DNA from: Lobosporangium transversale | Lineage: Eukaryota > Mortierellomycota > Mortierellomycetes > Mortierellales > Mortierellaceae | NCBI RefSeq assembly: GCF_002105155.1 | Contig: NW_019028979.1 | Coordinates: forward strand, 806,001-870,000 | Direction: 5' to 3' | DNA: 64,000 bases | In this document: piece after piece, positions 19,870-61,088 of the stretch | Position numbering within the stretch: the stretch's first letter is position 1 | How the letters are laid out: every line of letters begins with the position of its first letter | Notes under the pieces: generated by a model | What the model was told of the DNA's origin: nothing | The model's database searches: none | Seen by the model: the letters and a program-made list of their open reading frames with translations, nothing else | Program-made: the position numbers and the translations under genes

Positions 19870-19990
19870 CACTGAAGTTGCACCTGAGACTAAAGGCAAG
19901 GCTGGATGAATTGATCAGCCTGCAGAGTCTGGTTTTGCTGGTATTCAGACATAGTTTTCACCGGTAAATGAATCCTTGAAGTTGCACAGT
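19870..19990 (+). pseudogene. remnant of an F-box/LRR paralogue (C-terminal piece)
   Basis: The plus strand reads TLKLHLRLKARLDELISLQS here. This aligns with the C-terminal LRR of the intact paralogues, such as TLDLRLRTGLDELANLKSLK of the copy ending at 61088. About 120 bases can be aligned before similarity is lost. It shows the array once extended further left, and is the most decayed of the copies. Confidence 0.5.
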
Positions 19991-20631
19991 ATATTCGTTT
20001 ACTGATAGACTGAAGTATATATTATCAACAAACCTGAAATGGAGGGCAAGAACTCTTAGGCACGAGCCATCCACCCGCTTACGAATGATGATGATAGATT
20101 CTTGGTGAAGACGGTAAAGGCACCTACAGTAATAATATTTACAAAAACATTAGCATTATGCGTCCCCAACCATGTAGGATTTCCTAGCTAAAAGAGAATT
20201 TGCAACTTGATTTGCACCAAGACAATTTTTCTACGGATGCTAATTACACTGTGCGAGATATAGTTTAGTAGAAGAGAAAGCCGGACCTTGTCTTCGTTTA
20301 GTTCCGCTTTCTTCTTTTCTTTACTTCTTCTCTCTTCTAAGTGGTTCTTTTCACGGCTTTGATATAGATAGTACGCACTACCGTTAGTACCATTGCCAGA
20401 ATCCCCTTGCCAGATATGATGCAAACTAAACATTCACAATTATACAATACTTTTTTTTATAAGTTCAATATCCATATATCTCTCCTGTCTACGTTCCTGA
20501 ATGCTTAAATCGCACTTGCATAACATTATTTAATGCTTGATGCAAAACGTAGCCACACTTTTTTTTTTTTTTTTTTTTTTTTTTTCAGATGGGCCATTAC
20601 CACATTCCATCATTGGGTTTTTTTTTGCAAC
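19991..20631. other. upstream region of the first intact F-box gene
   Basis: Contains a stretch (about 20255-20400) that resembles the 3' flanks of other F-box copies (22380-22510 and 26520-26620) and a T25 tract at 20561-20585 just before the start codon. No separate gene is supported. Confidence 0.45.
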
Positions 20632-22152
20632 ATGGACCACCATAATTTAAATCCTTTAAAGATCCCTGAAATCCTCTTACTCATTGGCGGTTTGCTCAAC
20701 CAAAAAGACCTTTTAAACTGTATCCGAGTCTCAAAGTTTTTTCATAGTTCTCTTATCGGACTCATATGGAGAAAAATCACCATTACATCGCTCAAATATC
20801 CTGCTAGTAAAGCGCGACAGAAGCACAAGGAATACATTGAAAAGATTACATTTTCACATTTTGCATTTAAAGATTCTTTCCCAGTATTACGAGAAATTAG
20901 ATCCGTCGGATATGGAAAAGGATGTTCATGGCTCACGCCGAGGCACCTTTACAAGCAAATCAAAGTCCATAGCTCCATCCTCACGAGCTTTCACTTGTCC
21001 AGCGATATTGAGCATTCACATGAGCTCTGGAAGGCTTTACTGGAATGTAGCAACCTCTACCACTTGGAAGTTTACCACACAACTATCAGTGAGTCGGCTG
21101 ATCTATTCCTTCAAGTCTGTAAGAGAGTTAGGCGCTTAGAATTGGAGCATGTAACCATTCACCAGCTACCTGTTAATTTCCTAAATAACGACGATAGTGA
21201 ATATATTCTCCCGAAAATACACACACTGCGTCTTGAGGATGTCCGAATGGCCGATCCTCCAGATCTATATACCAGCTGGGGTTGCCTCGGCATGTTGGTC
21301 AGGAGATGTCCAGAATTGTTTTCATTACATATTAACAGCCGGGATCCGAATGATTACCATCCAGACTTCCACAGGATAGCATTTCTTCAGAAACCTTGGA
21401 CTTTGAACAATTTGTCAGATCTGGTTACCTTTTATATGAGGGTAAAAGACGAGGATATGGCTGTGCTCCTCAGACGGGTGACTGGATTAAGACGGTTAAT
21501 CGTCCCTTGTGGTGAATTCGGCCAGCTCTCTTTACAGGAGTTACTAGCAGACAAGCAAGAAGGATTGGATAGTGGACAAATAGTATGGAAGACAAGAGTT
21601 CGGAGACTCTGTGAGACAATTGAGACATTGGTGTTCAATAAGCTCGACATCATAGATGGTAGTGTTCTAACCATTTTATTGAATTGTCCACGACTGAAAA
21701 GGCTGGAAGGCCTTAAAACTACAGTGACAGAGATTTCCAGTGGGGCAGAATGGGTATGCGTTGGGTTGACTAAACTGGATATCTATCTTGAAAGAGATAT
21801 TGATCAAGAGACTGAAGAAGGCATGGCAAAGGCGCGCATGGTCTTTAGACAACTAGGCAAGCTGACTCAGCTAGAATATCTTGGCCTAACAGGATGGTGG
21901 AGCAAAAGAAGCAATGATAGAGAGACGCTGGACTTGAGATTAAGAGCAGGTCTGGATGAACTAGTCAATCTAAAGAAACTACGCACACTATGGTTCAAGA
22001 ATGATAAGAGCCAGCGATTACAACTCGAGGATGCGAGATGGATGGTGAACAATTGGCCAAGCATCAGAAACGTGAATGGCCTCCTGAATGATGAGAAGAA
22101 TGTAGCTATTTCGGTGAGAGGGTTCCTTAAGCGGTATAAGGTATCCAATTAA
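20632..22152 (+). CDS. F-box/LRR protein (paralogue A, intact)
   Basis: Single exon, 506 residues. The N-terminal F-box spans about residues 7-50 (LKIPEILLLIGGLLNQKDLL, then CIRVSKFFHSSLIGLIWRKI). The rest is a run of irregular leucine-rich repeats, with family landmarks such as LLECSNLYHLEVYHTTIS, FLQVCKRVRRLELEHVTIHQ and RWMVNNWPSIRNVNG near the end. By family, the F-box should bind Skp1 and the LRR should pick substrates for an SCF ubiquitin ligase. I chose the ATG preceded by TTTTGCAAC because eight other copies have the same context; an upstream in-frame extension lacks any matching sequence. Substrate unknown. Confidence 0.85.
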   Translation: MDHHNLNPLKIPEILLLIGGLLNQKDLLNCIRVSKFFHSSLIGLIWRKITITSLKYPASKARQKHKEYIEKITFSHFAFKDSFPVLREIRSVGYGKGCSWLTPRHLYKQIKVHSSILTSFHLSSDIEHSHELWKALLECSNLYHLEVYHTTISESADLFLQVCKRVRRLELEHVTIHQLPVNFLNNDDSEYILPKIHTLRLEDVRMADPPDLYTSWGCLGMLVRRCPELFSLHINSRDPNDYHPDFHRIAFLQKPWTLNNLSDLVTFYMRVKDEDMAVLLRRVTGLRRLIVPCGEFGQLSLQELLADKQEGLDSGQIVWKTRVRRLCETIETLVFNKLDIIDGSVLTILLNCPRLKRLEGLKTTVTEISSGAEWVCVGLTKLDIYLERDIDQETEEGMAKARMVFRQLGKLTQLEYLGLTGWWSKRSNDRETLDLRLRAGLDELVNLKKLRTLWFKNDKSQRLQLEDARWMVNNWPSIRNVNGLLNDEKNVAISVRGFLKRYKVSN

Positions 22153-23195
22153 TGAAAGATTAAAGAAGGAAAGAGAAGCATTGTCACATCATAATCTGAA
22201 ATAGAGGACGGAGATCTTGAACATGAGAATTTAGTGAAACTATGCCTCTTGGTGCTTGCCATACAATCTAAGTAATGATAGTATCCAAAATATAAATGGA
22301 GGATGGTTCTCCCAACTCGAATAGCGTTTGTACCTTTTTTTTTTTTTTTTTTTTTTTTTAACAGCTGCACCAACGAGTTGTAGAGCAACTTGGTTTAGCT
22401 GAAGAGAACGCTGAGGAGTGTCTTTGCTTGATTTCCCTTTCTTCTTTCCCTAAGTATTCTTCTAAATAGTTTCATCCGCAGCTGAGTATAGCTAGTACTC
22501 AATGATTCTCGAAAAGACAATCTCATCATTGTCAAGACTCTCACGGCATTTTCGATATCAAGTTATACTTTAACCATAAAGATGCTTGGAATGTGTAAAG
22601 TGCATTTTTATGACATCTATATGCATCTGTTCCACATTCCTGCGTTAAATGAAACGATAGTATGATAGTCAAATATCTAGATTGACACTGTGAACTGTAC
22701 CCATGCCTGCGCAAGGTGACAGAGGGCTGAGGCGATAGCACTGAGCTATAATGTTCCATAGTTTGACAACTACCGATAGTTGATTGAGAGGGGGAAAGAG
22801 GCCTGAAATCAGAAAATGGCGCTTGAGAAAGATAGACTAACAAGATGACTATGGCAACTAGAAGTTTGAGGGGTGAGGAAAGACATAGCAGCTGAATACT
22901 AGATAGAGAGCGATATGTTGCTGTTGCAAATAGAAGTCGCATCAGGTATATATTTGCTGTTGCGCTGAGGAGCCCTGGATGACTGAAATAAAAGAATGTC
23001 ACTGATAACATCTAACAAAATATATATTTATACTATCATTTACAAAAATCAGCCAATGAAATGAGGCTGGTGGCAAAATGTCAAGCACAAAGTTGACATT
23101 TACCGCCATCAATAAAGAATATAAATACCTTGAATTTTAAGCGCCTGTTCACAACTATGACTCAATGATCACACTCAGCGGCATCTTTTTACAAC
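22153..23195. other. duplicated F-box flank unit (A to B)
   Basis: This spacer is similar along much of its length to the spacer after paralogue C (26260-27290), including matching minus-strand frames (MEHYSSVLSPQPSVTLRRHG here, GEHCNSASWPQLPIILCRHG there). The frames are unlikely to be genes; they record duplication of gene plus flank. A T24 tract lies at 22336-22359. Confidence 0.5.
23050..23063 (+). promoter_or_regulatory. CCAAT-type motif upstream of F-box copy B
   Basis: CAGCCAATGAAATG matches the motif before copies C, K and I with one change. It lies about 130 bases before the start codon, with an ATATAAATAC TATA-like box between them near 23117. Confidence 0.5.
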
Positions 23196-23818
23196 ATGGA
23201 CCACTTTAAGTTGAATCCCTTTGACATTCCAGAAATCTTCTTACTCATTGGTGAATTCCTTGATCGAAATGACCTTTTAAAATGTATCCGCGTCCCTCAA
23301 TCCTTTCACAGTTCCCTTATCAGATTCGTATGGAGAGAAATCACTATCACATCGGTCAGAAAGCCTACCAAAAAAGCACTACAAAGGCACAGGCATATGT
23401 TGAAGAGATTACATTTAAAGACTGCAGATTTAAAGAACATTCTCCAAAGGAGTATGAGTCATTACAGGAGCTCAAGTCCATCACATACGGAAAGGGATGT
23501 TCCAAACTGACCCACCCTATCAACCAGATCAAGGCTTACAGCTCCATCATCACTAGCTTTCACTTAGGTGAGCGTATTTGGGCTTCGCGCGAGCCCTGGA
23601 AGTCTTTACTGGAATGCACTAACCTCTACCACTTGGAAGTTTATCGTAAATATATTAGAGCTTTTGTTGATCTATTCTTTCAGGTCTGCAAGAAGGCATG
23701 TGCAGACAACAAAGAAGACAACAACTGTTTGCTCACATACATTTTTTTCACTATTGGTATCCCTGTATGCCTTTTAAGCACAATAATGCAATGCTGTGCA
23801 TGGAAGATAGGGCCTTGA
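23196..23818 (+). pseudogene. F-box/LRR pseudogene (paralogue B)
   Basis: The copy starts well: ATG in the TACAAC context, then LNPFDIPEIFLLIGEFLDRN and the rest of the F-box. Near 23392 one base is missing relative to the paralogues (CACAGGCATATG instead of the expected CACAAGGCATATG), so the frame shifts. The original reading continues in the other frame (AYVEEITFKDCRFKEHSPKE) as far as LFFQVCKKA near 23700. There similarity ends abruptly and unrelated sequence follows, so more than half of the LRR is lost. Product, if any, would be an F-box with a short tail. Confidence 0.85.
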
Positions 23819-24703
23819 AACTATGACCATTGTTATGCGGACTCACCGAAATCAACTTGTGATCACAGCTGCTACTCATGCTCTGTTGCCAAGGACTTGA
23901 AAAGGGATACAAATCCCTTCTTCCTTGCTCTCATAATCACTCACATCCTCTCAATACTTTCTTTCGCCGTAAATGTCCATTACATCTGAATCACACACAG
24001 GCATTTCACCATTCGCTCCAACATAGATATATGTATCATCTTGAGTATGATATGTTGGGATTCCCTCTGGTTTCAACAGGTCCAACAAACTCTATTAGCA
24101 GTGTTTATCAACCCAGATATATCAAGGGAACGCAAGAAGATGAGGAAGCAAACGATATGACAAATCAAGTCTCGCCGAGTTGTACAGGAAAAGATCAAGT
24201 TAGTCAAGCTCCATGGTGTGGTAGAATGAATCAACTCAGATTGCCCTCCTTTCAAGCCAATACTACGGCGGCGGGTATCATCACCGCTATTACACCAGTC
24301 AATAAATAAACGATACAATGAGCTCCCAAGCGGATGCTAGGGTCATGCGAAAATCTTTTATGAGTTTTTTTATTTGCACAAATAAAGAAGCCAGGATAGC
24401 TCCATGACAGTTTGGTTTCCGGTCATTTATTTCGAGACAATGCCCATGGATTGCTGGATTTCAAGTCCATTTATAATAGTAAATTTGCCCTTGTTACGGA
24501 CGAAGGGATAAAAGCAAGTCTGCTGATCAAATAAAGTTAGTTAGTGGCAAAGCGGTCGACTCAAAATATTGTCCACTCTCCAACACATTGCATAATAGAA
24601 GGTTAGCCAATCAAATGGGGCTTATGCTAAAATGTCGAAACACATGCAGTCACCATGTCCACATTTTGGCGTTCCAACAGCATCCTCTCATTTGAATTGT
24701 AAC
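23819..24703. other. junction and promoter region between copies B and C
   Basis: The plus-strand frame at 23878-24309 has no known domain. Bases about 24145-24250 resemble 42630-42740 downstream of the F-box fragment G. The last 100 bases are the promoter of copy C. Confidence 0.45.
24605..24617 (+). promoter_or_regulatory. CCAAT-type motif upstream of F-box copy C
   Basis: AGCCAATCAAATG, identical to the motif before copy K (59452-59464). It is about 90 bases before the conserved start codon and 15 before the alternative one at 24632. Confidence 0.55.
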
Positions 24704-26251
24704 ATGAGCGACAGTATAAATCCCTTGCATATTCCTGAGATCATTCTCCTCACAGGTGCCTTCCTCGATGTAGAAGGCCTTCTAAACTGTATTCAAGTCT
24801 CCAAGGCTTTCTACAACATACTTATTGGGCTTCTTTGGAGAAGAATCGTTATCGGACCTTCACCAGCCGAATATCCTTCTAGAGAAGTACTGCAGAAATA
24901 CAAGGGGCACATTGAGGAGATTGTGTTTATAAACAACTTCCCTAAAGAGTATACGGAACTGCAAGGATGTACTCGTCTCCAGTCCATCTATTACAGGTCA
25001 AGGCTTCGTATGGCGATTGGATCAGATTGCCTATTAAAACTTTCCAATCTCATCAAGGCACACCATCCCACTATCACCAGTATTTATTTCCACGCATTTC
25101 AAAGTTCACATGGGCTCTGGAAGGCACTACTGGAATGCACCAACCTCAATATATTGAAGGCTTGTAATACGAGTATAAAGGATGGGGTCGATCTATTTCT
25201 TCAAGTCTGCAAGAAACTGAGACATTTGACCTTGGAAGATGTAGCCATACATCAGCTGCCTGCCAACTTTCTAAGTAATGAGGCCAACGAATATTCCCTC
25301 CCAAATATGCACACACTGTGTATTGAGAGGGTCAAGATAGCCGGCCCTCCCAAACCGTACACCAGCTGGTATTGCCTTGGGACGTTGGTTAAGAGATGTC
25401 CAGTATTGTGTGAACTGATTGTTGACGACAGCTACGAGCAATATCATCAAGCGGACTTCTACAGAGCAATACTCCTTCAGCATCCCTGGGCTCTAAATAG
25501 TTTATCAGCGCTGAGTTTGCATAATATGACAATAGAGGACAAGGATATGGCAGCACTTCTTGGTCGTATGACTGGATTACGACAGCTATCCTCCCTAAAA
25601 TGCGAATTCGGCCAGTTCTCTTTACAGGAGCTACTAGCAGACAAGCAAGAGATACTGGATGATGGGGAAATAGTACAAAAGGCAAGGCTTCAGAGACTCT
25701 GTGAGACACTTGAAATATTGGTGCTCTATACATACAATGCCGGCATTGGTCAAGCTGTGTTGTCAAGTTGCCCACGGCTGAAAGAACTAGAGGGACCTAA
25801 AATTACAGTGACAGAGATTGTCAATGGAGCAGAATGGGTATGCACAGGACTGACTGATTTGACTATCATTCTTGAGGCAGACGTTGATCAAGAGACTAAA
25901 GAAGGCATGGCAAAGACGCGCCTTGCGTTTAGACAACTAGGCAGGTTAACTAAGCTACGATCGCTTGCCCTACTAGATAGCTATTCGTGGAATGAAGCTA
26001 GATCGGTGCTGAACTTGAGGCTAAAGACAGGTCTAGATGAACTAGCCAATCTGAAGAGTCTACGCTCACTAAGGTTAGAAGACGATAAATACTGGCAAAT
26101 ACAACTTGAGGAAGCGACATGGATGGTGAACAATTGGCCAAGTATCAAATTCGTGGGTAGCGATCTGAGCGATGAGGAAGCTGAACCTAATTTGGCGATG
26201 GAGTTCCTAAAGTCGCACAACATATCCAATATCTGGGAGGACATGGATTAA
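24704..26251 (+). CDS. F-box/LRR protein (paralogue C, intact)
   Basis: Single exon, 515 residues from the conserved start. F-box at about residues 6-52 (LHIPEIILLTGAFLDVEGLL, then CIQVSKAFYNILIGLLWRRI), followed by LRR to the end (WMVNNWPSIKFVGSDL). An in-frame ATG at 24632 would add 24 residues; copy K has a similar in-frame extension, but in copy F the matching upstream ATG is out of frame, so the inner ATG in the TTGTAAC context is favoured. Expected role: substrate receptor of an SCF ubiquitin ligase. Flanks on both sides are shared with copies A and K. Confidence 0.85.
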   Translation: MSDSINPLHIPEIILLTGAFLDVEGLLNCIQVSKAFYNILIGLLWRRIVIGPSPAEYPSREVLQKYKGHIEEIVFINNFPKEYTELQGCTRLQSIYYRSRLRMAIGSDCLLKLSNLIKAHHPTITSIYFHAFQSSHGLWKALLECTNLNILKACNTSIKDGVDLFLQVCKKLRHLTLEDVAIHQLPANFLSNEANEYSLPNMHTLCIERVKIAGPPKPYTSWYCLGTLVKRCPVLCELIVDDSYEQYHQADFYRAILLQHPWALNSLSALSLHNMTIEDKDMAALLGRMTGLRQLSSLKCEFGQFSLQELLADKQEILDDGEIVQKARLQRLCETLEILVLYTYNAGIGQAVLSSCPRLKELEGPKITVTEIVNGAEWVCTGLTDLTIILEADVDQETKEGMAKTRLAFRQLGRLTKLRSLALLDSYSWNEARSVLNLRLKTGLDELANLKSLRSLRLEDDKYWQIQLEEATWMVNNWPSIKFVGSDLSDEEAEPNLAMEFLKSHNISNIWEDMD

Positions 26252-28272: not shown

Positions 28273-28484
28273 ATGAACAGCATTAAAATAAATCCCTTGA
28301 ATATTCCAGAGATTATCTTAATTGTTTCTGACTTTCTCGACCAAAGGAAACTTCTAAACTGTGTCCGTGTCTCCAAGCTTTCATAGTGTACTTATCAAGT
28401 TCACATGGAGAAAAATCACTGTCAGGCCATTCAGATATCCTACTGGCAAAGCACTGGGGAAGTACAGGAAATACATTAATATCG
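28273..28484 (+). pseudogene. F-box pseudogene fragment (paralogue D)
   Basis: The ATG is followed by NSIKINPLNIPEIILIVSDF and LDQRKLLNCVRVSK, a good F-box start. One base is then missing (AAGCTTTCATAG), giving an immediate TAG. In the shifted frame the copy continues (SVLIKFTWRKITVRPFRYPT, then GKALGKYRKYI) and stops matching at about 28484. Only the N-terminal sixth of the gene remains. Confidence 0.85.
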
Positions 28485-35603: not shown

Positions 35604-35644
<41 letters not shown>

Positions 35645-36421: not shown

Positions 36422-37004
36422 GAAAAAAAAAATCATACGCACATACAAAATCAAATACATATTATACATCAATACACAAGAGCAGCCGTAACAAACAGCG
36501 AGCCTTTCTTGCATTCTTGGCTGAACAAAAAAAAAAGGACTTTACTTGGCCAAGCTCAGGCCCTTGTTGACATCGTTGTGTATATTCATTTTCGTTTGTT
36601 ACCAGGACGATTGAGATAAAGCCATTGAACTAAGTCAAATTTGGCTGAGCCGCCTTATTCTAAAGACAAGCCTAGAATTTGTGGTTGGATTTGCAGAATG
36701 ACAGACAGCGTCTAGCTACCCTCCAAACTATTTCAATCACAAGAATGTATTGCTTTTGACATTATAGAACATCTATCTTTCTATCAAGCATGTCTCCATA
36801 TCACCTTTATTTGTAAGGGAAGGCTCCAAAATGAGTATGGCAACTAAAGCCCTGAGAGGAGAGCTGAGACATAATAGGTGAGTAGGTGAATGCTGGACAG
36901 AGCTGCTGTTGACGGTTGTAAATAAATGTCTTTATACGACATCCCAGTGTGGTAAGATTGGGATCGTGAAATAGTTTCTCACTTTTGCCACCACCATCCA
37001 TTCA
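36422..37004. other. intergenic region with F-box flank unit
   Basis: After the monooxygenase 3' end, the stretch 36820-36910 matches the pre-gene flank of other F-box copies (ATGAGTATGGCAACTAAAG at 36831-36849, then a GAATGCTGGACAGAG block). No gene. Confidence 0.5.
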
Positions 37005-38385
37005 TGTCCATATTTCATCAGTTGCATCTCTTCTCGACATTAACAGCCTTTTGAAGGCTCCGCAAATACTTTCACTTGTTGGCGACTTCCTCGAGCGAAA
37101 TGAGGTTCTAAACTGTATCTGTGTTTGCAAGACATTTCACCTTAATCTTATCAAGTTCATCTGGAGAGAATCATTGTCCCTCCAAAACTCCGTATATCGC
37201 CGCTACCCTGCTGGCGAAGTACTCATGACCTACAAGGTATACATTGAGAAGCTTAGATTCAAAGTACCCATCCTTCCAATTGAGCATTAGTCATTGCAGG
37301 GATGTACCCGCCTTCCGCCCATCATATCCGAGGGACTACAGTACAGAGCAGCAGGCGTCTTGGAATTAATCAAGACTCACAATTCCACCATCACCAGGTT
37401 TTGTATAAGAAGCATCCAAACCTTATGTGGAGCCTGAGTGGCGCTACTTGGTTGTACCAACCTTAACCGGAAGTCTCTGGCACTGATATAGGTGATGGAG
37501 TTGATACTCTCCTTCAAGTTTGCAAAAAACTTCGACTCTTGAGCTTGGAAAGTACATTCATACAGCGGCTACCCATCGGCTTCCAGAATAGCGAAACCAT
37601 CGAATACAATTCCCCAATATATGCACACTATATATTGACAAAGTTTGGATGAAGGACCCCCCACATCCGTACACACCATCATATTGCCTTGGCATGTTAG
37701 TGAGGAGATGTTCAGGATTGGTTGCATTTGTAGTCGCCTCCAGTTAATCGGAGTCTATGGTTTAATATTACCTGAACCGATTTACTTTTGAATTTGCTCA
37801 AGGCACATAACTCTATCATTACCAAGGTTACCCTAGAAGATGCTCAAAGCCCACAAAAGCTCTAGTTGAGACACTGTTGCTCGATGAACGAAGCATTGGG
37901 ACTGACGGTATTGTTCAACAGATTCTGTCTAATTGCCACAACTAAAGCAGCTGAGTAAACTTAGAATCAAGCTGACAGAGATTACCGATGGAGCAAAATG
38001 GGCATACAATGGATTGACGAGTTTGATGATCAGAGGGCTGAAGAAAGCATGGTGAAGACGCGCGTTGTGTATAAACAGCTAGGTTAATTGATTCAGCTAT
38101 GTTCTCTTAGCCTGAGAGTGTGGGACACAAGGAAAACGAATGCTGAACTTCAGATTAAGAGTAGGTCTGGATGAACTAGCTGACCTGAAGAGTCTTTGTT
38201 TCCACGAAAACTGTCACCAGCCAACGCAGCTTGAGGATGCGATGTGGATTGTGAACAATTGATCAAGTATCAGATACTTGTATGGTCGTGTGTGCCAAGT
38301 GCTTGGTGGAGACGAAAAACTTTGGTGCATGAGTCTCTCAAGTCGCATAATATATACTTTGGCCGATAGTCTAAAAGAAACAAAT
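37005..38385 (+). pseudogene. F-box/LRR pseudogene (paralogue E)
   Basis: The F-box is readable (LERNEVLNCICVCKTFH, then NLIKFIWRES), but the conserved start codon reads ATT (about 37039) instead of ATG. A stop follows at about 37288, and more frame changes, stops and internal deletions follow. Recognisable family pieces remain along the whole length: LELIKTHNSTITRF (about 37360), the CLGMLVRRC segment (about 37690) and IRYLYGR near 38280. About a fifth of the normal length is missing. It is an old full-length copy in decay. Confidence 0.85.
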
Positions 38386-39307: not shown

Positions 39308-39311
39308 ATGA
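39273..39311 (+). other. upstream ORF overlapping the start of F-box copy F
   Basis: ATG TCT ACA ... ACA TGA codes 12 residues (MSTFLLHHLFAT). Its TGA overlaps the main ATG as ATGA. If the leader includes it, it could lower or couple translation of the main frame. Confidence 0.45.
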
Positions 39312-41511: not shown

Positions 41512-41766
41512 TCACAACTTTGTATGCTTCTTTGAGAAACGGCCTCCAAAACCAAACTTTTCAACGTATCTCTTGTGTTTCAGCAGTAGTTCACCAACAA
41601 GGAAGCTAGGCCTGATATGGATGTTTCTCCAAAGAGATCTGGTAAGAGCACGATGAAAAGTGGTGGAGACGCGAATACAATTCAGAGGGCCTTTTCGATC
41701 AAGTAATTCACCAGTGAGGATGAGAATCTCTGAAATATTTAAATGAGCCATGTTAAAGCTGTTCAT
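41512..41766 (-). CDS. F-box-only fragment (paralogue G, truncated)
   Basis: An intact 84-residue frame begins at the ATG in the TTTGCAAC context and carries a full F-box (LNISEILILTGELLDRKGPL, then CIRVSTTFHRALTRSLWRNI). It continues to KRYVEKFGFGGRFSKK and ends at a stop; the LRR domain is missing and downstream DNA is unrelated to it. A TATA-like CCCTTTTATA (41818-41827, TATAAAAGGG on the coding strand) lies about 52 bases upstream. If expressed it could bind Skp1 without substrate, but it may equally be a dead remnant. Confidence 0.55.
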   Translation of the reverse strand: MNSFNMAHLNISEILILTGELLDRKGPLNCIRVSTTFHRALTRSLWRNIHIRPSFLVGELLLKHKRYVEKFGFGGRFSKKHTKL

Positions 41767-50225: not shown

Positions 50226-51660
50226 ATGAGCAATTTCAAGTTGAGCCTTAGAGATTCCCGAAATCATCTTACTCATTGGCGACTTCCTCGAGCAAGATGG
50301 CCTTCTAAACTCTATTCACGTTTCCAAAGCTTTTCATAAAGCACTTATCGGACTCGTATGGAAAGAAACCTATCGAACCTTTCCCGAGCAAAAATCATAC
50401 TGGTCTTGCACTACAGAACCACAAGAAATATATTGAGGAACTACGCTTTGGAGTAGACGACATTCCAAAGGAGTATGTCTCATTACAAGGATGTGATCGC
50501 CCCCAATACATCATATACTCAGGTAGAACATGTAATAAACCGATCCGCTCTTTGAAGCTGATCAAGGCTCACAACCCCACCATCACTAAGTTAGGCTTTT
50601 ACAGAATTCAAACTACATTTTGGCTTTGGCAGCCACTTCTAGAATGCACCAACCTCAATTCCCTAGAACTTTATGATACTCCATTGATGACGGAGCCGAG
50701 ATATTCTTTCGAGTCTGCCAGAAAGTTGGGCAATTGGATTTGGAGCTTGTAACCATCCACCAGCTACCCACCAGCTTCCTAAGTAGTGAGGACAGCGAAC
50801 ATGTTCTCCTGAATATACACACATTCCCTACTGAGGGTATCGAGATAGACCCTCTAGATCCGCGCATTAGCTGGTATCTCCTTGGCATGTTGTTATGGAG
50901 ATGTCCCGGATTGCGTGTACTTGAACTTTGTTCAAATATAAGCAACGAGGATGCTCTTTTCTGTCTAGTGTTCCTCCAGCACCCTTGGATCCTGATTAAC
51001 CTGTCAGAACTATCTATTCCTGACATGTTCCTAAAAGACAGGGATATAGCGACGCTTCTCAGACGGATACCTGGATTATGACGGCTAGATATCCCATATA
51101 GTGAGTTTGGCCCGCTCTCTCTGCAAGCATTACTAGCAGACGAACAAGAGATATTGTATAATGGACAATGAATATGAAAGAAAAGGGTTCGGAGCCTCTG
51201 TGAGATGATTGAGATATTGGCGATCAATGTACTCAGCGACAGGACGGGTTGTCTTTCTCAATCTATTTTATCCACTTACCTGAAACAACTAACGGAACCT
51301 AAAATCACAGCGATGCAGATTTTCCGTGGGTCAGATTGGGTATGCACTGGACTGACTGATCTGACTCTCAACCTTGTGGTAGACATCGACCAAGTGACTG
51401 AGAAGGCCTGGTATTGCAGCACTTTAACAAATACGACGCTGAACTTAACGGTAGGGGCAGGTCTGAATGAACTAGCCAACTTGAAGAGCCTGCACACATT
51501 AGCCTTCAGACGAGATCTTTATCAACGAATAACACTCAAGGATGCAGTATGGATCTTGGACAATCGGCTGAGTATCAGATTCCTGAAGGGCCACATTTTC
51601 TTAGTGCTGGATAAGTTTGACCTGGTGAAGTATGATCAGGATGGTGTTGGAAAGAGCTCA
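50226..51660 (+). pseudogene. F-box/LRR pseudogene (paralogue H)
   Basis: Starts at an ATG in the TTTTTGCAAC context, but the F-box needs a frame change within the first 40 bases (then IPEIILLIGDFLEQDGLLNS and VSKAFHKALIGLVWKE). More frame changes follow. A long middle piece is open (50734-51081: LELVTIHQLPTSFLSSEDSE, LRRIPGL) and ends at a TGA where the paralogues have an Arg codon. TGA codons also occur near 51169. The C-terminal third is open again from 51205 (LTDLTLNLVVDIDQVTE) with an internal deletion. It is a full-length copy inactivated by several small mutations. Confidence 0.88.
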
Positions 51661-53149
51661 TATACATCGATAGCACAGATGTTATCCAGGATGAACGCTT
51701 TATGGGATCCCTCCGTCTATTCGATGAAGATGATGAAGAATATTTATGTAATAATAAAAGGTACAATTGTACATTATACAGGAATAAAAATGAGATAAAT
51801 GAAGAAATTCGCTTAAAGAAAGAAAGAACAACGAAGTCACGGATGTCATATTCATTCCCTAGTTGTTTCTACTCATGCAGCTTTGTCTTTCATCAGCACT
51901 ACCACCTCATTCCAGACTCCTTCTTTCCTTCTTCCCCTCCTTCAATTAACCTTCAACAGCTCAAACAGACGCAGTACTGCAGCCCAGCTCTGTCCTTTAA
52001 GCTCTGTGTCATCTTTTGCAGACATGAATATAGTCTGCGGAGCCTTTTCAAGAGGGTCGAGCAGAAGGCATATTCATGTCATAAAGAGATTCAATTCAAG
52101 TAGTTCAGATAGGGGAAAGGAGGGAGAGATGAATGTATAAAAAATAGCTGTATGGTATAGTTTGACACTATTGAACGAACCTAGCAATAGCAATAGCGTC
52201 ATTTCGAGGAACCCACTGCAGATTAATGATAGTCAATCAATGAAAGGTGCAAATTAAACAAGTCAATCTATAAAAAGAAAGAAAGAAAGAAAGACGTTGA
52301 ATTTTTTTTTTTCTTTGATGACTATGACCGCTTTTATCAATATTACTGCAGCTATATCACTATTGTTTATGAAGTGAATGTCCAAGAGCTCATGTCCGCC
52401 ATATTATAGGATGTAGATTGAAAATATCTGCTTTTGAACTTTGAAATTACTTATTTCCAATATTCCAATATCCCATGACGATAATTACGTGTTTCTTGAG
52501 CGTATTTCATTAAGATATGCCTATGTGTGTACGGAAAGGTCATGATGCTATAAGTAAAGTCGTTCATTTTAGATCCAACTGGATTATCTCGGCCTGAGGC
52601 CTGTTGCTGGTAATGAAGTGCAGCTTTTAAAAGATGGTTTCACGCGTGCAGTAGCCCATTGATTATACATCAGAAATGGCGTAATTTTACTTTATTCTGT
52701 GCATACCATACTTTGTACAGATGTTACTCCATGGATCCTGAATGGATTCTTTTAAAGGTAGTTTCAAACTGAAGGTAATAAGTTCCCAAATTGGCTTTTA
52801 CGAAGGCGTCTGCATTGTAGCACTCTAACAGGAGCCATTCGTGCTTCAAGCCTGTAAAGTTTTTAAAAGTGACCAACTTTGTCATGATATTTGGTGCTTC
52901 TTTTATATGCTGAACAGATCCTTTTCATTCTTTTTTTATGGCGGGTATTAGTGCCTTCTATCATATATTTGATGGGGATAATACCATCTTTTCGAGAAGG
53001 ATACTTATAAGGGCTCTAGTAAGTTCAGTGATGATTTTTGGCACAGTATCCAGCATATTTACTACAAGTGTGTGGAAGCGCTTTAATTATCATCCTAAAT
53101 GGAACTACATCTAACGAAATGCCAAAAAACCTCTGAAGCATACTGTTGA
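51661..53149. other. F-box flank and anonymous DNA with one coding remnant
   Basis: 51970-52100 resembles the 3' flanks at 41227 and 38735. On the minus strand about 52725-52866 reads LKHEWLLLECYNADAFVKAN, then LGTYYLQFETTFKRI, before a stop, with no match I can name. The rest is AT-rich without a visible gene; an AAAG microsatellite lies at 52272-52294. Confidence 0.4.
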
Positions 53150-54540
53150 CCAATTATCCACAAGCCATGTCGCATCCTCGGGTTCTATCTTCTGGGAAAT
53201 ATCTGATTTGAAGCTTAGCGTATGTAGACTTTTCAGTTGACTAATTCACCCAGGCCTGCTCTTAGCCTTAAGTTCAGCGTTCGTACTATAGGATCGCGAT
53301 AATCCTTAGTCAGCCAAAGGTAGCGTAGCTGAGTCAATTTTCCTAGTTCTTTATACACAACACGCGTCATCGCCATGCCTTCTTCGGTCTCTTGGTCAAC
53401 ATCTGCCACTAGAGTAATATGCAGATCAGTCAGTCCAGTGCATACCCATCCCACTCCATCGACAATCTCTGTTACTGTGATTCTAGGTCCTGTCAGTTTC
53501 CTCAGTCGTGGACAATTCGATAAAATAGCCTGGACAATGCCATCCGGCCTGTCACTATCTTCATTGAGTATCAATATCTCAACAGTCTCACAGGCTCTTC
53601 GAAACTTTTCCTTTTGTACCATTTGTCCATTATTCAACACCTCATACTTGTCCGTCAGCAATCCTTGCAAAGAGAGCTGGCCGAACTCGCAACCTGGGAC
53701 ATTTAGCCATGTTAGACCAGTCGTCTGCCTGAGAAGTACTACCATACCACTGTCCGTTATTTTCGCGGACGGGGAAGACAGCTCTGCCAAATTATGCAGA
53801 GTCCAGGGATGTTGGAAGAAAGCTTCCTTATAGTAATCAACTTGGATATTTTTACCAAACTTAAGCGTATATAATCCTGGACATCGCACCAACATGCCGA
53901 GGGAATGTGATGGTGTGTAAGGGTGTGAAGGGTCGAATATCCGGACACGGTCAATGTGCAGTGTGTGTATATTTGGGAAAGTATGTTCGCTGACCTCGCT
54001 ACTTAGGAAGTCGGTAGGTAGCCGGCATATGAAAACATCATTGAAATCCAAGTACCCAAGTTTCTTGCAAACTTGAAAGAATATGTCGACCCCATCATCT
54101 ATAGACATACTAATAACCTCCAAGTGATTAAGGTTAATGCACCCAAGCAGCGTATCCCAGAGCAATTGTGAGCTTTGAACGTCTTCTAGGATAACCTTGG
54201 TAATGGTAGAGTTGTGGGCCTTGAATAGATTCAAAAAGTGAATCGGCTCGGATGATATTAAACTAGAAGCTTTGATGAACCAGAGGCGACTACATCCTTG
54301 CAAAGACCCATACTCTTCTAGGATATCATCCCCAGGATGTTTAAAGTGAAGTTCCTCAATGTGTTCCTTGTGCTTCTGTAGTGCTTCGCCAGTGAGGGGC
54401 AAAGATTCGGTGTCGTCTGACTATGATTTTCCTCCAAATGTGCTAGATAAGAGCTCCATGAAAAGTTTGGAGACGCAAAGACAGTTTGGAAGATCCTTTC
54501 GACTGAGGAAGTCACCAATGAGCGAGACAAGTTCTGACAT
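53150..54540 (-). pseudogene. F-box/LRR pseudogene (paralogue I)
   Basis: The F-box is read from the ATG at 54540 (SELVSLIGDFLSRKDLPNCL, then CVSK). One base is missing in TCCAAACTTTTC at about 54465, so the frame runs into a TAG soon after. The original frame resumes and is open for 389 codons (53233-54402: GEALQKHKEHIEELHFKHPG and the LRR). Near 53245 a second one-base loss (GTCAACTGAAAAG) ends the frame just before the last repeat. Very close to intact copy F, so inactivation looks recent. The 389-codon frame could be mistaken for a gene. Confidence 0.85.
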
Positions 54541-54565
54541 GAGGAAAATAAATGTGTTTTGGCCA

Positions 54566-54578
54566 ATTTGATTGGCTG
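54566..54578 (-). promoter_or_regulatory. CCAAT-type motif upstream of F-box copy I
   Basis: On the coding strand it reads CAGCCAATCAAAT, the same as before copies C and K, about 26 bases before the ATG; the usual spacer seems deleted. Confidence 0.5.
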
Positions 54579-55478
54579 ATTTTGTCAGTTCACGTTCCTG
54601 AAGTCCATGCCATCCAGGCCATCCATTGGTGGTCAGCGTAACAGCAAGATTGGTAACAAATAAACAAATACAATAAAAATAAAAAGTTAGCAGGCTATCC
54701 TCCGTCAAGCATGCACCTGCTACGTCTTTTCTCATTTCTCAAGGCTTCAGTTGCCATACTCATTTAGGAGTCTTTTCAACCCGAATAAGCCAACTCGAAT
54801 AAAATAGCCTTCCTTATGTATTGTTAGCTCATTCCATATCTCCTCTCTTCCCTGCTCTTCTATTCTTCTAACTCATTTCACAAAGATAGACAGCTTATAT
54901 TTTATTGATACTGGATAGCCAAGAATTGTAATGTCATTAAACTCACTGAAAATAATAATAAGCTAGTCTTCTTCTTTTGTAACACTTTTAAAAAGACAAA
55001 AAAAAGTATCCAAACCTCGGCCGACAGTCACTGCATTTTCAGCAAGCATTGTTACTTGTGCATCTACTGTTCTACTGTCCTCATACTCTATATCTCTCCT
55101 CGGAAGCTCACTTTGCAGCATTCTTGAGTTGAATGTTAAACTGTGTAATAATATCTATGAAATTGCTTTCAAAAATCTCGTGATGAATATTTACAAGGAG
55201 TGTGAACATTGTATATAGGTTTCAACAAGAGGAAGGAATCAAGGGCCGCATTGTCGTATGGAATCTCTTATTCCTTCTACATCTGCTTCATATATCTACT
55301 CATAATGTCCCCTAAATAGTTTAAACTAGAGAGAGGAGCCAAGTTTCATCATATAAAATTTCCTTTGCGCTCACCAGTATCGCCTAAGTAGTTAAAGTAA
55401 GGGAGAGGAGCCAAGTGCCTCGTCGTCATATGAGATCTCCTCTCCATCCATCTCATATATCCACTCATTAGTATCACC
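54579..55478. other. intergenic region
   Basis: Holds the inverted F-box flank block at 54745-54763 (reverse complement of ATGAGTATGGCAACTGAAG) and a degenerate tandem repeat beginning near 55250. No gene. Confidence 0.45.
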
Positions 55479-55490
55479 TCAATCATCCAA
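55250..55490. repeat. degenerate tandem repeat, about 70-90 bp units
   Basis: Two to three imperfect units share the blocks TCATATATCYACTCAT, TCGCCTAARTAGTT and GAGAGGAGCCAAGT. The right end overlaps the last exon of the hypothetical minus-strand gene. Confidence 0.6.
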
Positions 55491-55926
55491 TTTGTCATCT
55501 TGATCCCTCTGATGGCATTGGAAATAATTATTCATTGCCTCTTTGACACCGGTCTAAAATGAGATATGTGTTAATAGCAGCCCAATAATTAAAAAACCAA
55601 TCAGGCTGGGAAAAAGCATATACTCGAACTCGTGGAATATGGGCAAGGATCTTAAACTGCGCTTTTAGGTCGCCAGCCTTCGTTGGTAGCTTGAAAGGGC
55701 CATAGATTTTTATAAGAGAAACATATGTTGTGGAAGTAGCCCACTTCAACTCAATAGTTGCCAGCCCCCTATCTGTAATGAATAGAAGGCAAAGGGGCGT
55801 GACAAGTGGGGTAAGACCAGAAAACGAGATAGATACCTAATGAACGCTTACTCTAACTTACCTCCAGATCAAATAAAACTGAGGATTTGTCGTGCGATAG
55901 CTAGCAATGTTCGGTAAACCTTTCAT
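55479..55926 (-). CDS. hypothetical small protein, three exons
   Basis: A frame-consistent model is 55862-55926, 55624-55768 and 55479-55553, giving 94 residues. It starts MKGLPNIASYRTTNPQFYLI and has the segment YVSLIKIYGPFKLPTKAGDL in exon 2; exon 3 ends in a charged tail (NNYFQCHQRDQDDKLDD). If the last intron is not removed, exon 2 instead runs on to a stop at 55528 (101 residues). No signal peptide, membrane helix or known domain is seen. The splice sites keep the frame, which argues for a gene, but it is short and could be chance. Confidence 0.35.
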
Positions 55927-56186
55927 TAAAACAGTTTAAGGACCGTTAACTTGAACAAGCTCACATTACAACTAATAGCTGCAGATGAAGTTTACCGTAC
56001 TTAATAAACTCAATCGAAGTACATTAAAAGTTTCTCAAGGTGCAACGCAGACTATAGTGTCTTTTTTTTCTTTTCTGCAATATACTATGGTAGTGAATAG
56101 ACTATGAGCACAGGAAGGCCTGCATCCGAATCTCAATATCCTGCATACTAGACTGGATTGGAAATGCAATTCTTTTCTTCTTTAGT

Positions 56187-57749
56187 CTATCTTCTAACGA
56201 ATATCTCGTGAGACTCAAAGAATTTGTATATCAAATTGTATATATCATTTTCATCCTTATTCGGATTTGAGTTCAGGCGACCCTTCAAGTATTTGATCCT
56301 TGGCCAATTGCCCACAATCCATGTTGCATCTTCGAGTTGCATTCGCTGGTGATTGTCACCATAAAACCATAAGGAAACTAGATTCTTCAGATTGACTAGC
56401 TCATCCAGACCTGCTCTGAGCCTCAAGTCTATTGTCCGTATTCTCTCTTCATTATTTGAATTCTGCGACGTAAGGCTGAGGTATTGTAGCTGAGTCAATT
56501 TGCCAAGTTCCCTAAACGCAATACGCGCCTTCGCCATACCCTCTATAGTTCCTTGATCAACGTCTGCCTTAAGATAAATATTCAAGTCAGTCAGTTCAGT
56601 ACAGACCCATCCTGTCCCGTTGACAATCTCTGTTATTGTAATCTTAGTTCCCGTCAATTGCTTCAGACGTGGACAATTCGATAAAACAGCTTGAACAATC
56701 CCATCCATCCCGACACTTTGTTCATCAAACATCAATACCTCCAGTGCTTCACAGAGTCTTCGGGGCCTTGTCTTTCGCAATATGTGTCCCTTGTCCAACA
56801 TTTCTTGTTTATCAGCTAGCAACTCCTGTAGAGAGAGATGACCGAATTTACATTGTCGGACATCTAAATGTCTTAATTCAGTGATCTGGCTGAGAAGTGC
56901 CATCATATCCTTGTCTTTTATTCTCATATAAGGCAAAGACAGATATGACAAATTCGCCAATACCCAAGGATACTGTTGGAATGTGGTCCTGTAGAAGTCA
57001 TTTATTATTAGTTGCTCAGGTCCCCCGTGCCCGCTTTTATCAACAAATGTTAATTCACATAGTCCTGGACATCTCCTCGCCAATATGCCGAGACAAGATG
57101 ATGCTGTATATGGATGTGGAGGTTTAAGTATCTCGACGGCTGTAATGGACAGTGTGTGTATATTTAGGAAAGAAAATTCATTGGCCTCGTTGCTAATGAA
57201 GTTGCTTGGTAGCTGAAATATGGATACACATCTTAAAGTCAACCGGGCAAGCCCCTTGCAGACTTGAAGGAATGGGCCGACTTCATCCTTTATACGTGTG
57301 TAGGACACTTCCAAACGCTTGAGGTTAGTACATTCCAGTAGTGCCCCCCAGAACTCATGTGAACTTTGAATATCGTCAAAGCAAATCCTGGTGAGAGTAG
57401 AGTAGTGGGCTTTGATGAGGTTTGAAAGGTAGTTCAATTGGGACGATGTACCAAATTCCCGTTTGTAATCGATGAACTGGAGGCGATCACACCCTTTCAA
57501 TAACCCATATTCTTTTGGAAACCTGCTTTCAAACCTTAACTCCTCAATGTATTTCTTGTTGTTTTCTAGTGCTTCTCCAGTAGGATATTTACAGACAATA
57601 TTGATCTCTCTCCATCTGGACCTGATAAGAGCCCTGTGAAAGACCTTTGAGACGCGGATACAGTTTATAAGGTCTCTTCGATTGAGATGCTCGCCAATGA
57701 GGGAGATGATTTCTGGAATGTCCAAGGGACTCAATTTAATGTTTTCCAT
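56187..57749 (-). CDS. F-box/LRR protein (paralogue J, intact)
   Basis: Single exon, 520 residues, on the minus strand. F-box at about residues 6-50 (LDIPEIISLIGEHLNRRDLI, then CIRVSKVFHRALIRSRWREI). LRR segments include CTNLKRLEVSYTRIKDE, CPGLCELTFVDKSG and GLDELVNLKNLVSLWF; the end reads WIVGNWPRIKYLKGRLN. The start codon is in the TTTGCAAC context shared by the family. Unlike C and K, no CCAAT-type CAGCCAATCAAAT motif is seen within 150 bases upstream, so its promoter has diverged. Expected role: substrate receptor of an SCF ubiquitin ligase. Confidence 0.87.
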   Translation of the reverse strand: MENIKLSPLDIPEIISLIGEHLNRRDLINCIRVSKVFHRALIRSRWREINIVCKYPTGEALENNKKYIEELRFESRFPKEYGLLKGCDRLQFIDYKREFGTSSQLNYLSNLIKAHYSTLTRICFDDIQSSHEFWGALLECTNLKRLEVSYTRIKDEVGPFLQVCKGLARLTLRCVSIFQLPSNFISNEANEFSFLNIHTLSITAVEILKPPHPYTASSCLGILARRCPGLCELTFVDKSGHGGPEQLIINDFYRTTFQQYPWVLANLSYLSLPYMRIKDKDMMALLSQITELRHLDVRQCKFGHLSLQELLADKQEMLDKGHILRKTRPRRLCEALEVLMFDEQSVGMDGIVQAVLSNCPRLKQLTGTKITITEIVNGTGWVCTELTDLNIYLKADVDQGTIEGMAKARIAFRELGKLTQLQYLSLTSQNSNNEERIRTIDLRLRAGLDELVNLKNLVSLWFYGDNHQRMQLEDATWIVGNWPRIKYLKGRLNSNPNKDENDIYNLIYKFFESHEIFVRR

Positions 57750-58109
57750 GTTGCAAAGATGGTGGCGTAATCACACGAGGTGCTTTCACCGACCTGGTGG
57801 CGTATAACGATACTCAAACGCTCGCTCAGATACGCGTCGCAGGAGTATGAACGTTATTGAAGATGAGAATGAAATTTATTGAAGGAATGGGGAGAGTCGT
57901 TATGATGAGATGGTGCATGCGCCAGATCTTTCTCGCTCGACTTTGAAGAAAAGAGGAGGCGACTTTTAAAAAAAAAAGTTCGCGTGGCGCAGAAAATTTT
58001 GCACATTGAAATCTTGTCCACATTCCATCTCTTGTGGATGCTTACATAGACCAAGACGTGTGGTGTGGTGGGAGCTTCAGCGGGCTATTAGTCTAACAAA
58101 ACACTGGTG
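57750..58109. other. spacer between copy J and the Tc1 element
   Basis: Promoter side of copy J followed by DNA of unknown origin up to the TA target site. Short frames on the minus strand are not protein-like. Confidence 0.45.
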
Positions 58110-58111
58110 TA

Positions 58112-59437
58112 CAGTCACCTAAAACAAAGATTGGACAAAAAAATAAAATATTGAAATAGTTACGTAGGGAAGCGTTTCCTTCAATCTCTTTCCTTTCTGT
58201 TTTTCACATACAAACAGCTTGAGTAAACCACCATGGCGAGACACTTAGACATTGAGAATAAAGGTATCATCGTTGGAATGCACCTCGCGGGCATGAAGGC
58301 TGCGGAAATCGCATTGCAACGCGGTGTACCCCGAACCTCTGTTATTAATATTATCAGGGTGTACCAAGAAAGAGGCACCACTGCTTGCACTCCGATCCCA
58401 GGACGGCCCAAAGTACTAAGTGAACGGGACCTCAGGAGCATCGTTCGCCATACTAAGCAGAATAGAAGGTGTACTCTTAATGATATCACTAACCAATTGC
58501 CGAACAAAGTTTGCGAGAGGACAGTTGCGAAGGCATTGCATTCACTGGGTATTTTCAGCCGGATTGCAGTAAAAAAACCATTCTTAAAAGAAGGACATAT
58601 AAAAAGGAGGCTGCAGTTTGTCAAAAAATATATGAGTTGGTCCATGGAAGACTGGAATCGGGTAGTTTGGACTGACGAATAATCATTTGAAGTTGGTGAG
58701 CATTTTCGTCAAATAAGAGTTTGGCGTAAAGTAGAGGAAAAGTACGATCATGATTGCCTCGCACCCACTTTCAAAAGTGGTAGAACAACTCTGATGGTCT
58801 GGGGGGCGTTCACAGCAACCAGAAAGTCTCGGTTGGTTGTATTTGAAAGAGGTCGTAAAGATGGACGGTGTTTCGTGGAAGATGTATATCAAGGCGAGCT
58901 AGCCAGATTTATGGCTGAGGTAGAGGATGGCATACTTATGGAGGATAATGCTCCAGTTCATACTTGTAAGATTGCAAAAGAATGGCGCGAAAAAAACAGC
59001 ATCCCGAGGATTCCAGACTGGCCTTCATGCTCCCCAGATTTGAACCCTATTGAACATGTATGGTCACTTCTTGCGGATGCACTCGATAGGCGCGCTAAAG
59101 GGCCAAGAGATCTTCCCACTCTCACACGGGCTCTTATCGAAGAGTGGAATAATTTACCGCAAGAGAGGCTGGCCAGCCTTGTCGCTACCATGCCCGAAAG
59201 GCTGGAAGAAGTGAATGGGGTCGATGGTAGGAACACTCACTATTGAACCTACATGGCACTTTTGCTACTCTAACAATGCCGTCTTCAAAACCCCAATAAA
59301 TAACAGTATTGACCTCTTTAGTGAGCATGTAAAATTTCATGTGTATTGATGAAGTCTTTATGTATGTTGCATATGAGCTGTTTGTCCAGGTTGTTCAAAA
59401 AAAAATCATTTTGTCCAAACTTTATTTCAGGTGACTG
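58112..59437 (+). mobile_element. Tc1/mariner-type DNA transposon
   Basis: The element is 1326 bp, flanked by TA on both sides (58110-58111 and 59438-59439), the usual target duplication. Its ends form imperfect inverted repeats: the left end starts CAGTCACCTAAAACAAAG, the reverse complement of the right end starts CAGTCACCTGAAATAAAG, and both continue TTGGACAAAA after one more mismatch. It encodes one transposase. The TA and the sequence to its right match the undisturbed site upstream of F-box copy C, so it entered the promoter of copy K. Confidence 0.92.
58233..59246 (+). pseudogene. Tc1/mariner transposase with one in-frame stop
   Basis: The frame is open over 338 codons except for a TAA at codon 150 (58680-58682), inside the block WTDE-stop-SFE, where related transposases have Ser or a similar residue. 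The N-terminal part (MKAAEIALQRGVPRTSVINI, RPKVLSERDLRSIVRH) forms the paired helix-turn-helix DNA-binding region that contacts the inverted repeats. The catalytic triad is Asp in WTDE, Asp in MEDNAPVH and Glu in SPDLNPIEHVW; I count 35 residues between the last two. Everything else seems intact, so the copy was inactivated recently, and transposase from elsewhere could still move it. Confidence 0.9.
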
Positions 59438-59450
59438 TACAAAAGAAGGT

Positions 59451-59464
59451 CAGCCAATCAAATG
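59451..59464 (+). promoter_or_regulatory. CCAAT-type motif upstream of F-box copy K
   Basis: CAGCCAATCAAATG lies 12 bases right of the TA that ends the transposon and about 85 bases before the conserved start codon of copy K. Same motif as before copies C and I, near-identical in B. Confidence 0.55.
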
Positions 59465-59549
59465 AGACTTCTGGTGGAACGTCATGTCTACAAAGAATGC
59501 AAAGACATCACGTCCAACATTCCATGCATCCTCTCTTTGTAATTGCAAC

Positions 59550-61088
59550 ATGAGCAAAATGAGCTTGAATCCCTTGCATCTTCCCGAGATTATCCCCCTC
59601 GTTGGCGACTTCCTCTATGAAAAAGATCTTCTGAACTGTGTCCGTGTCTCCAAGACTTTTCACAACGCATTTATTGGACTCTTATACAGAAGAATCACTG
59701 TCGAACCTTCATCCAGATATCCTTCTGGTGAAGCATTGCAAAAACACAAGAAACATATTGAAGAGATTTTATTTCAAAACGTCTTCCCTGAGGAGTATAC
59801 GATATTGCAAGGATGTGCTCGCCTCCAGTCCATCAATTACTGGTCGCAGTTTCGTATGTCGGCTGAATCAAGTCACCTACGAAGTCTTTCAAATCTCATA
59901 AGGGTACATGGTTCCACTATTACCAGGATATGTTTCCATAGAGTTCGAAGCTCACATGAGCTCTGGAAGGCACTGTTGGGATGTACCAATCTCAATAGAT
60001 TAGGAACCTATAATACAAGTATAAGGTGCGCTAATAAAGAGTTCGATCTATTCCTTCAAGTCTGCAAGAAAGTTAGGCACTTGGAATTGGTGCATATACT
60101 CATGCTCCAGCTACCTGACTTCTTCAGAAACAGCGAAGGCAGCGAGTATGTTCTCCCAAATATACGCATACTGCATATTGAGGATGTCCAGATAGTTGGT
60201 CCTCCCTTTCCGTACACTATTTGGTATTACCTCGGGATGCTGGTTAGGAAATGTCCAGGATTGTGCGAACTGACTGTTGATGGGGAGTTCGAGCAAAATC
60301 ACCAAGCGGACTTCTACAGAGCAGCACTCCTTCAGCATCCTTGGATCCTGAATAGTCTGTCAGATTTGTGTTTGCTTAATATGACTATAGAGGACGAGGA
60401 TATGGCTGCACTTCTCAGGCGCATAACTGAACTAAATCGGCTAATCAGCCGATATTGTAAATTCGGCCAGCTTTCTTTGCAAGAATTACTAGCTGGTGAG
60501 CAAGAGGTACTAGATAGTGGACAGATGGTACGGAAGACAAGGGTTCGGAGGCTCTGTGAAACAGTCGAGGCATTAGCATTCCGTACAGACAATAGCGGTA
60601 TTACTCAAGCAATTCTATCGAATTGCCCTCGACTGAGAACAATGGAAGGATCTAAAATCACAGTGACAGAGATTGTCAATGGAGCGGAATGGGTTAGCAC
60701 TGAATTGACTAGCCTAGTGCTCGATCTTGAGGCAGATGTTGATCAAGAGACTGAAGAAGGCATGGCAAAAGCGCGAATTGCATTTAGACAACTAGGAAGG
60801 TTGACTCAACTAAATTCTCTCGCCATAGCAGCAGGGTGTCAGCCTAATGGAAGACGGACGCTGGACTTGAGGCTAAGGACAGGCCTAGACGAGCTAGCAA
60901 ATCTGAAGAGTTTGAAAGTGCTAATGTTCGGATATGGTTATCTCCAGCGAATAGAGCTACAGGATGCGGTGTGGATCGTGGACAATTGGCCAAGTATGAG
61001 ATACTTGTATGGTCGTTTGGAAGTACCGATGGGTGTAGATACTTCAGTTTATGACTTCCTTAAGTCGCACAATATATCCATTAGCTGA
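59550..61088 (+). CDS. F-box/LRR protein (paralogue K, intact)
   Basis: Single exon, 512 residues from the ATG in ATTGCAAC. F-box at about residues 6-52 (LHLPEIIPLVGDFLYEKDLL, then CVRVSKTFHNAFIGLLYRRI). The LRR includes CTNLNRLGTYNTSIR, CPGLCELTVDGEFE and GLDELANLKSLKVLMF; the end is WIVDNWPSMRYLYGRLEV. A second in-frame ATG at 59484 would add 22 residues. Closest intact relative is copy C; they share promoter motif, leader and 3' flank. The transposon ends 110 bases before the start codon, so DNA beyond the proximal promoter has been displaced by 1.3 kb. Expected SCF substrate receptor. Confidence 0.86.
   Translation: MSKMSLNPLHLPEIIPLVGDFLYEKDLLNCVRVSKTFHNAFIGLLYRRITVEPSSRYPSGEALQKHKKHIEEILFQNVFPEEYTILQGCARLQSINYWSQFRMSAESSHLRSLSNLIRVHGSTITRICFHRVRSSHELWKALLGCTNLNRLGTYNTSIRCANKEFDLFLQVCKKVRHLELVHILMLQLPDFFRNSEGSEYVLPNIRILHIEDVQIVGPPFPYTIWYYLGMLVRKCPGLCELTVDGEFEQNHQADFYRAALLQHPWILNSLSDLCLLNMTIEDEDMAALLRRITELNRLISRYCKFGQLSLQELLAGEQEVLDSGQMVRKTRVRRLCETVEALAFRTDNSGITQAILSNCPRLRTMEGSKITVTEIVNGAEWVSTELTSLVLDLEADVDQETEEGMAKARIAFRQLGRLTQLNSLAIAAGCQPNGRRTLDLRLRTGLDELANLKSLKVLMFGYGYLQRIELQDAVWIVDNWPSMRYLYGRLEVPMGVDTSVYDFLKSHNISIS

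Follow-up and report, generated by a model that had tools for sequence, protein, structure and literature searches.

The 64-kb window analyzed here (C1:806001-870000 of the 42.7 Mb assembly of Lobosporangium transversale, a soil fungus of the Mortierellaceae; coordinates in Table 1 are positions in the window) contains 12 members of an F-box/leucine-rich repeat (LRR) family: five intact, intronless open reading frames (ORFs), designated genes A to E, one F-box-only ORF, and six broken copies. Nine members lie on the plus strand and three on the minus strand. tblastn searches with the five intact genes as queries located six further family places, and an nhmmer profile built from 33 family coding sequences added the C-terminal LRR remnant, so that ORFs, tblastn, and nhmmer together recover all 12 of the places claimed, on both strands, by the initial annotation. 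The short remnant that it had put at 19870-19990 is a significant nhmmer match (Table 1) and collects 18 tblastn high-scoring segment pairs at E ≤0.1 (best 8.7e-5). Copy I, described as broken by two single-base losses, is in fact more degraded, with at least three frame changes and an in-frame stop over 53129-54540. Public gene models in this region are unreliable because P0050 (952 aa; window 53236-57749) fuses gene D with the adjoining broken copy I, and P0037 (355 aa) spans only parts of gene E.

Table 1. F-box/LRR family members in the 64-kb window.
Feature	Position	Strand	Remarks
C-terminal LRR remnant, ~125 bases	19852-19976	+	nhmmer E 2.8e-13, model positions 1301-1425
Gene A, intact	20533-22152	+	ORF 539 aa; F-box-like 25.5 bits; P0021 100%; database model starts at 20632
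Broken, truncated copy	23172-23752	+	F-box and first LRRs in two frames, rest lost
Gene B, intact	24632-26251	+	ORF 539 aa; F-box-like 25.3 bits; P0007 100%; database model starts at 24704
F-box-only broken remnant, frame-shifted	28273-28480	+	
Broken long copy, many frame changes	36985-38403	+	part of middle missing, earlier piece repeated there
Gene C, intact, structure predicted	39308-40861	+	ORF 517 aa; predicted local distance difference test (pLDDT) 87.3, predicted template modeling score (pTM) 0.84
F-box-only ORF	41503-41775	-	84 codons from ATG, then stop
Broken near full-length copy	50226-51693	+	several frame changes and stops
Broken copy I	53114-54588	-	≥3 frame changes, 1 in-frame stop, LRR frame mostly open
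Gene D, intact	56187-57749	-	ORF 520 aa; F-box-like below cut-off; LRR_4
Gene E, intact	59484-61088	+	ORF 534 aa; F-box-like 16.4 bits, below cut-off

All five intact window proteins match the Pfam F-box-like domain (PF12937) between residues 12 and 84, two of them over the curated cut-off. LRR_4 lies over its cut-off in gene D, and LRR_At5g56370 exactly at the cut-off in gene C. The AlphaFold model of gene C is a C-terminal LRR solenoid preceded by N-terminal helices (residues 8-46) in the low-confidence F-box part, and FBXL proteins are among its best fold and profile matches.

How large is the family, and how old are its members? A genome search with gene C gave at least 89 matches (83 of 287 candidates scored), which merge into at least 83 loci. 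Among the 83 loci listed, the matched stretch is free of stops in 63, of which 48 are ≥1,380 bases long, and contains stops in 20. A second locus lies within 50 kb for 70 of the 83, whereas 200 random placements averaged 14 such loci and never exceeded 25. Around the window, the array covers C1:826,638-953,734 with 20 loci among the matches listed, and four more of these matches lie at C1:726-761 kb. The window is the middle part of this array; the 12 members assigned by the initial annotation to 41 kb are present there, but the array runs past the borders it was given. The whole genome gives at least 146 F-box-like matches (150 of 280 candidates scored), so that the F-box/LRR family belongs to a broader F-box expansion.

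The 33 intact copies are on average 51% identical to one another. The intact window genes are old (~50-60% identical) and not recent duplicates: gene A groups with clusters on contigs C66 and C87, genes B and E are sisters at 60% identity, gene C falls together with a gene at C1:759 kb, and gene D stands alone. Young copies are found in two groups, clade X, comprising five genes at C1:878-947 kb with synonymous divergence (dS) of 0.07-0.13, and clade Y, comprising three genes on C66 (dS 0.07-0.14) and a pair on C87. Young pairs share DNA beyond the ORF and were therefore copied as DNA; loci L027 and L037, for example, are 96% identical over 2,810 bases, including 1.3 kb upstream. Retroposition, raised because the genes are intronless, is accordingly disfavored. 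Of 311 alignments longer than 800 bases, only 20 continue >100 bases past the query ORF on its upstream side and 14 on its downstream side, as would be expected if most pairs are old; in this comparison the overlapping loci L034/L036 and L019/L028 yield trivial 100% matches. The birth-and-death process proposed in the initial annotation is thus evident in the stops at 20 of the 83 loci listed and in young DNA-level duplicates near decayed copies. Recent births within the window, which it had also implied, are not seen, since the young duplicates detected all lie outside it and its own intact genes are old.

Several further observations concern the family at large. L056 (C48:40001-46000) and L057 (C50) share 6,000 bases at 100% identity with a broken family member inside, which represents either a recent segment copy or an assembly duplicate, and family members on C63 and C118 also score equal or nearly so. 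Members on C56, C34, C108, and at C1:1834 kb match only the first ~410-440 residues of gene C, without a stop; perhaps they form a sub-family whose C terminus is shorter or otherwise distinct. BX616 proteins were considered as a second strain and rejected, being nearly identical and possibly from the same isolate: P0005 and P0039 are 100% identical to L. transversale assembly loci, as is P0055 to the L048 protein, P0012 reaches 99.8%, and P0033, P0044, and P0047 match the assembly at 97-99%. These proteins are uninformative about copy-number variation among strains.

What drives the divergence of the copies? Codon models were fitted, in a purpose-written Python program whose tree scale matches that of IQ-TREE to within 3 in 100,000, to the 33 intact ORFs of ≥480 aa, out of 45 distinct family ORFs and at least 83 genome loci. 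After 263 of 760 alignment columns with occupancy <80% were dropped, 497 codons were kept. The ratio of nonsynonymous to synonymous rates (omega) under M0 is 0.63, and models allowing positive selection fit far better, with twice the log-likelihood difference (2ΔlnL) reaching 642 for M2a over M1a, 653 for M8 over M7, and 518 for M8 over M8a; M8 places 18% of codons at omega 2.55. Likewise, 2ΔlnL for M8 over M8a is 87.6 in clade X, 62.6 in clade Y, and 62.0 among the five window genes. Gene-wide omega in clade X is 1.52 under M0, significantly >1 (2ΔlnL 9.4), and ranges over 1.45-1.66 across codon-frequency choices, with pairwise Nei-Gojobori (NG86) ratios of 0.70-1.55; the clade Y value of 0.85 does not differ significantly from 1. 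The strongest selection result is the cross-validation. The 72 sites picked in 23 other paralogs have omega 4.51 in clade X and 3.1 in clade Y, significantly >1 in both (2ΔlnL 23.4 and 16.5, respectively), and the remaining 425 sites have omega 1.11 and 0.66. Positive selection on the LRR, for which the initial annotation had set dN/dS as the check beforehand, is strong in the site models and cross-validated in clades X and Y, and the codon models exclude purifying selection along the whole LRR.

The selected sites occupy a particular part of the fold. In the 33-paralog set, 74 hot sites were called, two of which fall in gaps of gene C, leaving 72 mapped on its predicted structure: 51 of 159 positions on LRR strands and the turns after them are hot, compared with 21 of 335 elsewhere. 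Omega >1 is thus concentrated at the predicted ligand face of the solenoid, the strand side being taken as that face by inference from known LRR structures. The F-box is constrained over the whole family (omega 0.52). Genomic drift, that is, chance duplication and decay with an LRR that varies through relaxed constraint, would fit the many decayed copies, the high overall omega, and the young-clade F-box values given below. Relaxation, however, can neither yield omega 3-5 at sites picked in other paralogs nor explain why change gathers on the strands and the turns that follow them; drift is already contradicted by the cross-validated omega, and we regard it as very improbable.

We propose, at a probability of about 0.72, that the array is a repertoire of SKP1-cullin-F-box (SCF) substrate receptors of the FBXL type that diversify against changing protein ligands. 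By analogy with the FBXL family, the N-terminal F-box would dock on SKP1 of the SCF ubiquitin ligase, the concave face of the LRR solenoid would grip a protein, and that protein would be ubiquitinated and then destroyed. Copies arise by DNA duplication of a gene with its flanks, as seen in the young pairs, and other copies decay. According to the codon models and the predicted structure, strand residues and the turns after them are driven apart by positive selection, and the F-box stays constrained over the family as a whole, less clearly within its youngest clades. The outcome would be a repertoire of receptors that follow their protein ligands as these change. That the LRR is under positive selection and the F-box constrained family-wide points to changing ligands and a stable machinery. 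The genome holds three whole Skp1 domain matches and one split match, and both sides of the SCF interaction, F-box proteins and Skp1, may therefore have multiplied.

A number of points weigh against this proposal. Profile matches to the F-box are weak, at 16.4 to 25.5 bits, and pass the cut-off in two of the five intact window proteins; the gene C model has low confidence in its F-box part. The fold list also contains many unrelated LRR proteins with scores near that of FBXL2. Omega for the F-box is 1.10 and 0.82 in the young clades, not distinguishable from 1, which weakens the contrast between LRR and F-box at short time scales. The pairwise NG86 ratio exceeds 1 in 3 of 528 pairs only, and the claim of positive selection therefore rests on the site models. 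In these models, sites were called by naive empirical Bayes with branch lengths fixed in proportion, and gene conversion was handled only through a split of the gene into halves. Finally, the M8-M8a 2ΔlnL for the full set falls from 518 to 140 when all gap-near columns are dropped (273 codons retained), as would be expected if misalignment near indels, gene conversion, or saturated dS inflated the test. Significance is nevertheless kept in this reduced alignment (clade X, 18.9; clade Y, 12.7) and in each gene half with its own tree in clades X and Y (18.3 to 90.4), the signal is present in clade X where dS is as low as quoted above, and 19 null simulations without positive selection never reach the observed statistic (maximum 7.45; 2 of 19 exceed 2.71). 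An artefact of this kind is consequently the least probable explanation that we weighed.

Which proteins might these receptors bind? Mycoviral, endobacterial, transposon, and rival-strain proteins are all candidate ligands. The likeliest class is in our view non-self, for example mycovirus or endobacterial proteins, at somewhat less than even odds. A survey found RNA viruses in 25.9% of 27 Mortierellomycotina isolates and reports a gene of viral origin in L. transversale (PMC7482067), and NOD-like receptors (NLRs) of Mortierellomycota are linked to Mycoavidus endobacteria (PMC11291939). These reports make non-self ligands plausible and prove nothing.

Window neighbors recognized by Pfam are ordinary genes (amino-acid permease, Not3, oxysterol-binding protein, PPR protein, and NAD kinase), in line with the housekeeping surroundings described in the initial annotation, except that a Tc1-like element lies among them at 58112-59437, between genes D and E. 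Its inverted-repeat arms (58108-58155 and 59394-59441) are 79% alike with TA at both sides, its HTH_Tnp_Tc3_2 and DDE_3 parts share one frame with a stop between them, and it ends 46 bases upstream of the first ATG of gene E. A variant of our proposal, already raised in the initial annotation, would aim the receptors at quality or transposon control, with products of the fungus's own mobile elements as ligands. Beyond the position of this element nothing ties the receptors to transposon proteins, and one element in 64 kb is no enrichment, no systematic transposon search having been made; we consider this variant quite unlikely.

Among known systems, the array proteins share an N-terminal F-box and a C-terminal LRR solenoid with FBXL proteins such as FBXL2, SKP2, FBXL5, KDM2A/B, and plant TIR1/COI1. 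Those are conserved genes, whereas the array is an expanded set under diversifying selection, with ~12-16% identity to FBXL proteins in fold alignments. Plant S-locus F-box (SLF) proteins carry an F-box-associated (FBA-type) C-terminal domain; in the array the substrate domain is instead an LRR, none of the five intact window proteins matches an FBA family in Pfam at E ≤1, and no S-RNase-like partner is known. Like SLF/SFBB genes (PMC6649718), the array contains linked F-box copies diversified by positive selection. In plants, several linked S-locus F-box proteins jointly recognize non-self S-RNases. The receptors could similarly sort own from foreign strains or mating partners, a ligand variant whose odds overlap with those of our proposal, since linked F-box genes diversified within one haplotype under positive selection are the S-locus pattern (PMC6649718). 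However, family members are spread over many contigs, and no linked polymorphic ligand gene was seen, although no search aimed at one was made; recognition within the species is therefore an unlikely reading.

Similarly, the nematode F-box/DUF38 and MATH adaptor families are described as having expanded greatly in their lineage, with positive selection on the domain that binds substrates and a link to infection response (PMC5392922). The array resembles them in large expansion and substrate-domain selection, but their substrate domain differs, and infection induction is a finding specific to the nematode families. As in fungal NLR repertoires, the array offers diversified candidates for intracellular recognition in a fungus. 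In one report, fungal NLRs are drawn without LRRs (PMC5658179); array proteins, by contrast, have an LRR, and the five intact window proteins have no NACHT or NB-ARC Pfam match at E ≤1. An expectation that the genome would be NLR-free proved wrong. It has 75 NACHT matches, 73 of which exceed the cut-off; 57 of the 75 fall within open frames of 1,312-2,146 codons, and many lie on C36, C40, C64, C77, C94, and C97. A large NLR-like repertoire thus stands beside the F-box/LRR family in the same fungus. A profile search of the genome found no NB-ARC match, and HET gave 0 matches, its control being likewise silent.

Positively selected F-box expansions are known already from nematodes (PMC5392922) and plant S-loci (PMC6649718); what is new is a putative FBXL-type repertoire in a fungus whose LRR is under diversifying selection. 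The literature searched, with most subscription papers outside its scope, held nothing on this F-box/LRR family and no paper pairing F-box and Lobosporangium. The case matters because fungi are described, in a survey of 101 species, as lacking LRR receptors (PMC2939053). Diversifying selection on a predicted binding face, as in immune receptors, is unexpected for fungal LRR proteins. The array carries the concept of an F-box arms race beyond nematodes and plants into fungi, and a fungal LRR family with a selected predicted binding side is a concrete candidate for how early-diverging fungi recognize invaders or rivals, for which the selection analysis names residues to test. We suggest tentatively, as a possibility that may well not hold, that Lobosporangium possesses an LRR-based non-self system in which dozens of SCF receptors with differently shaped concave faces destroy foreign or rival proteins in the cell. 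If true, this system would take the place of the LRR receptors described as missing from fungi, and would amount to a fungal equivalent of plant R genes in which a ubiquitin ligase replaces the NLR.
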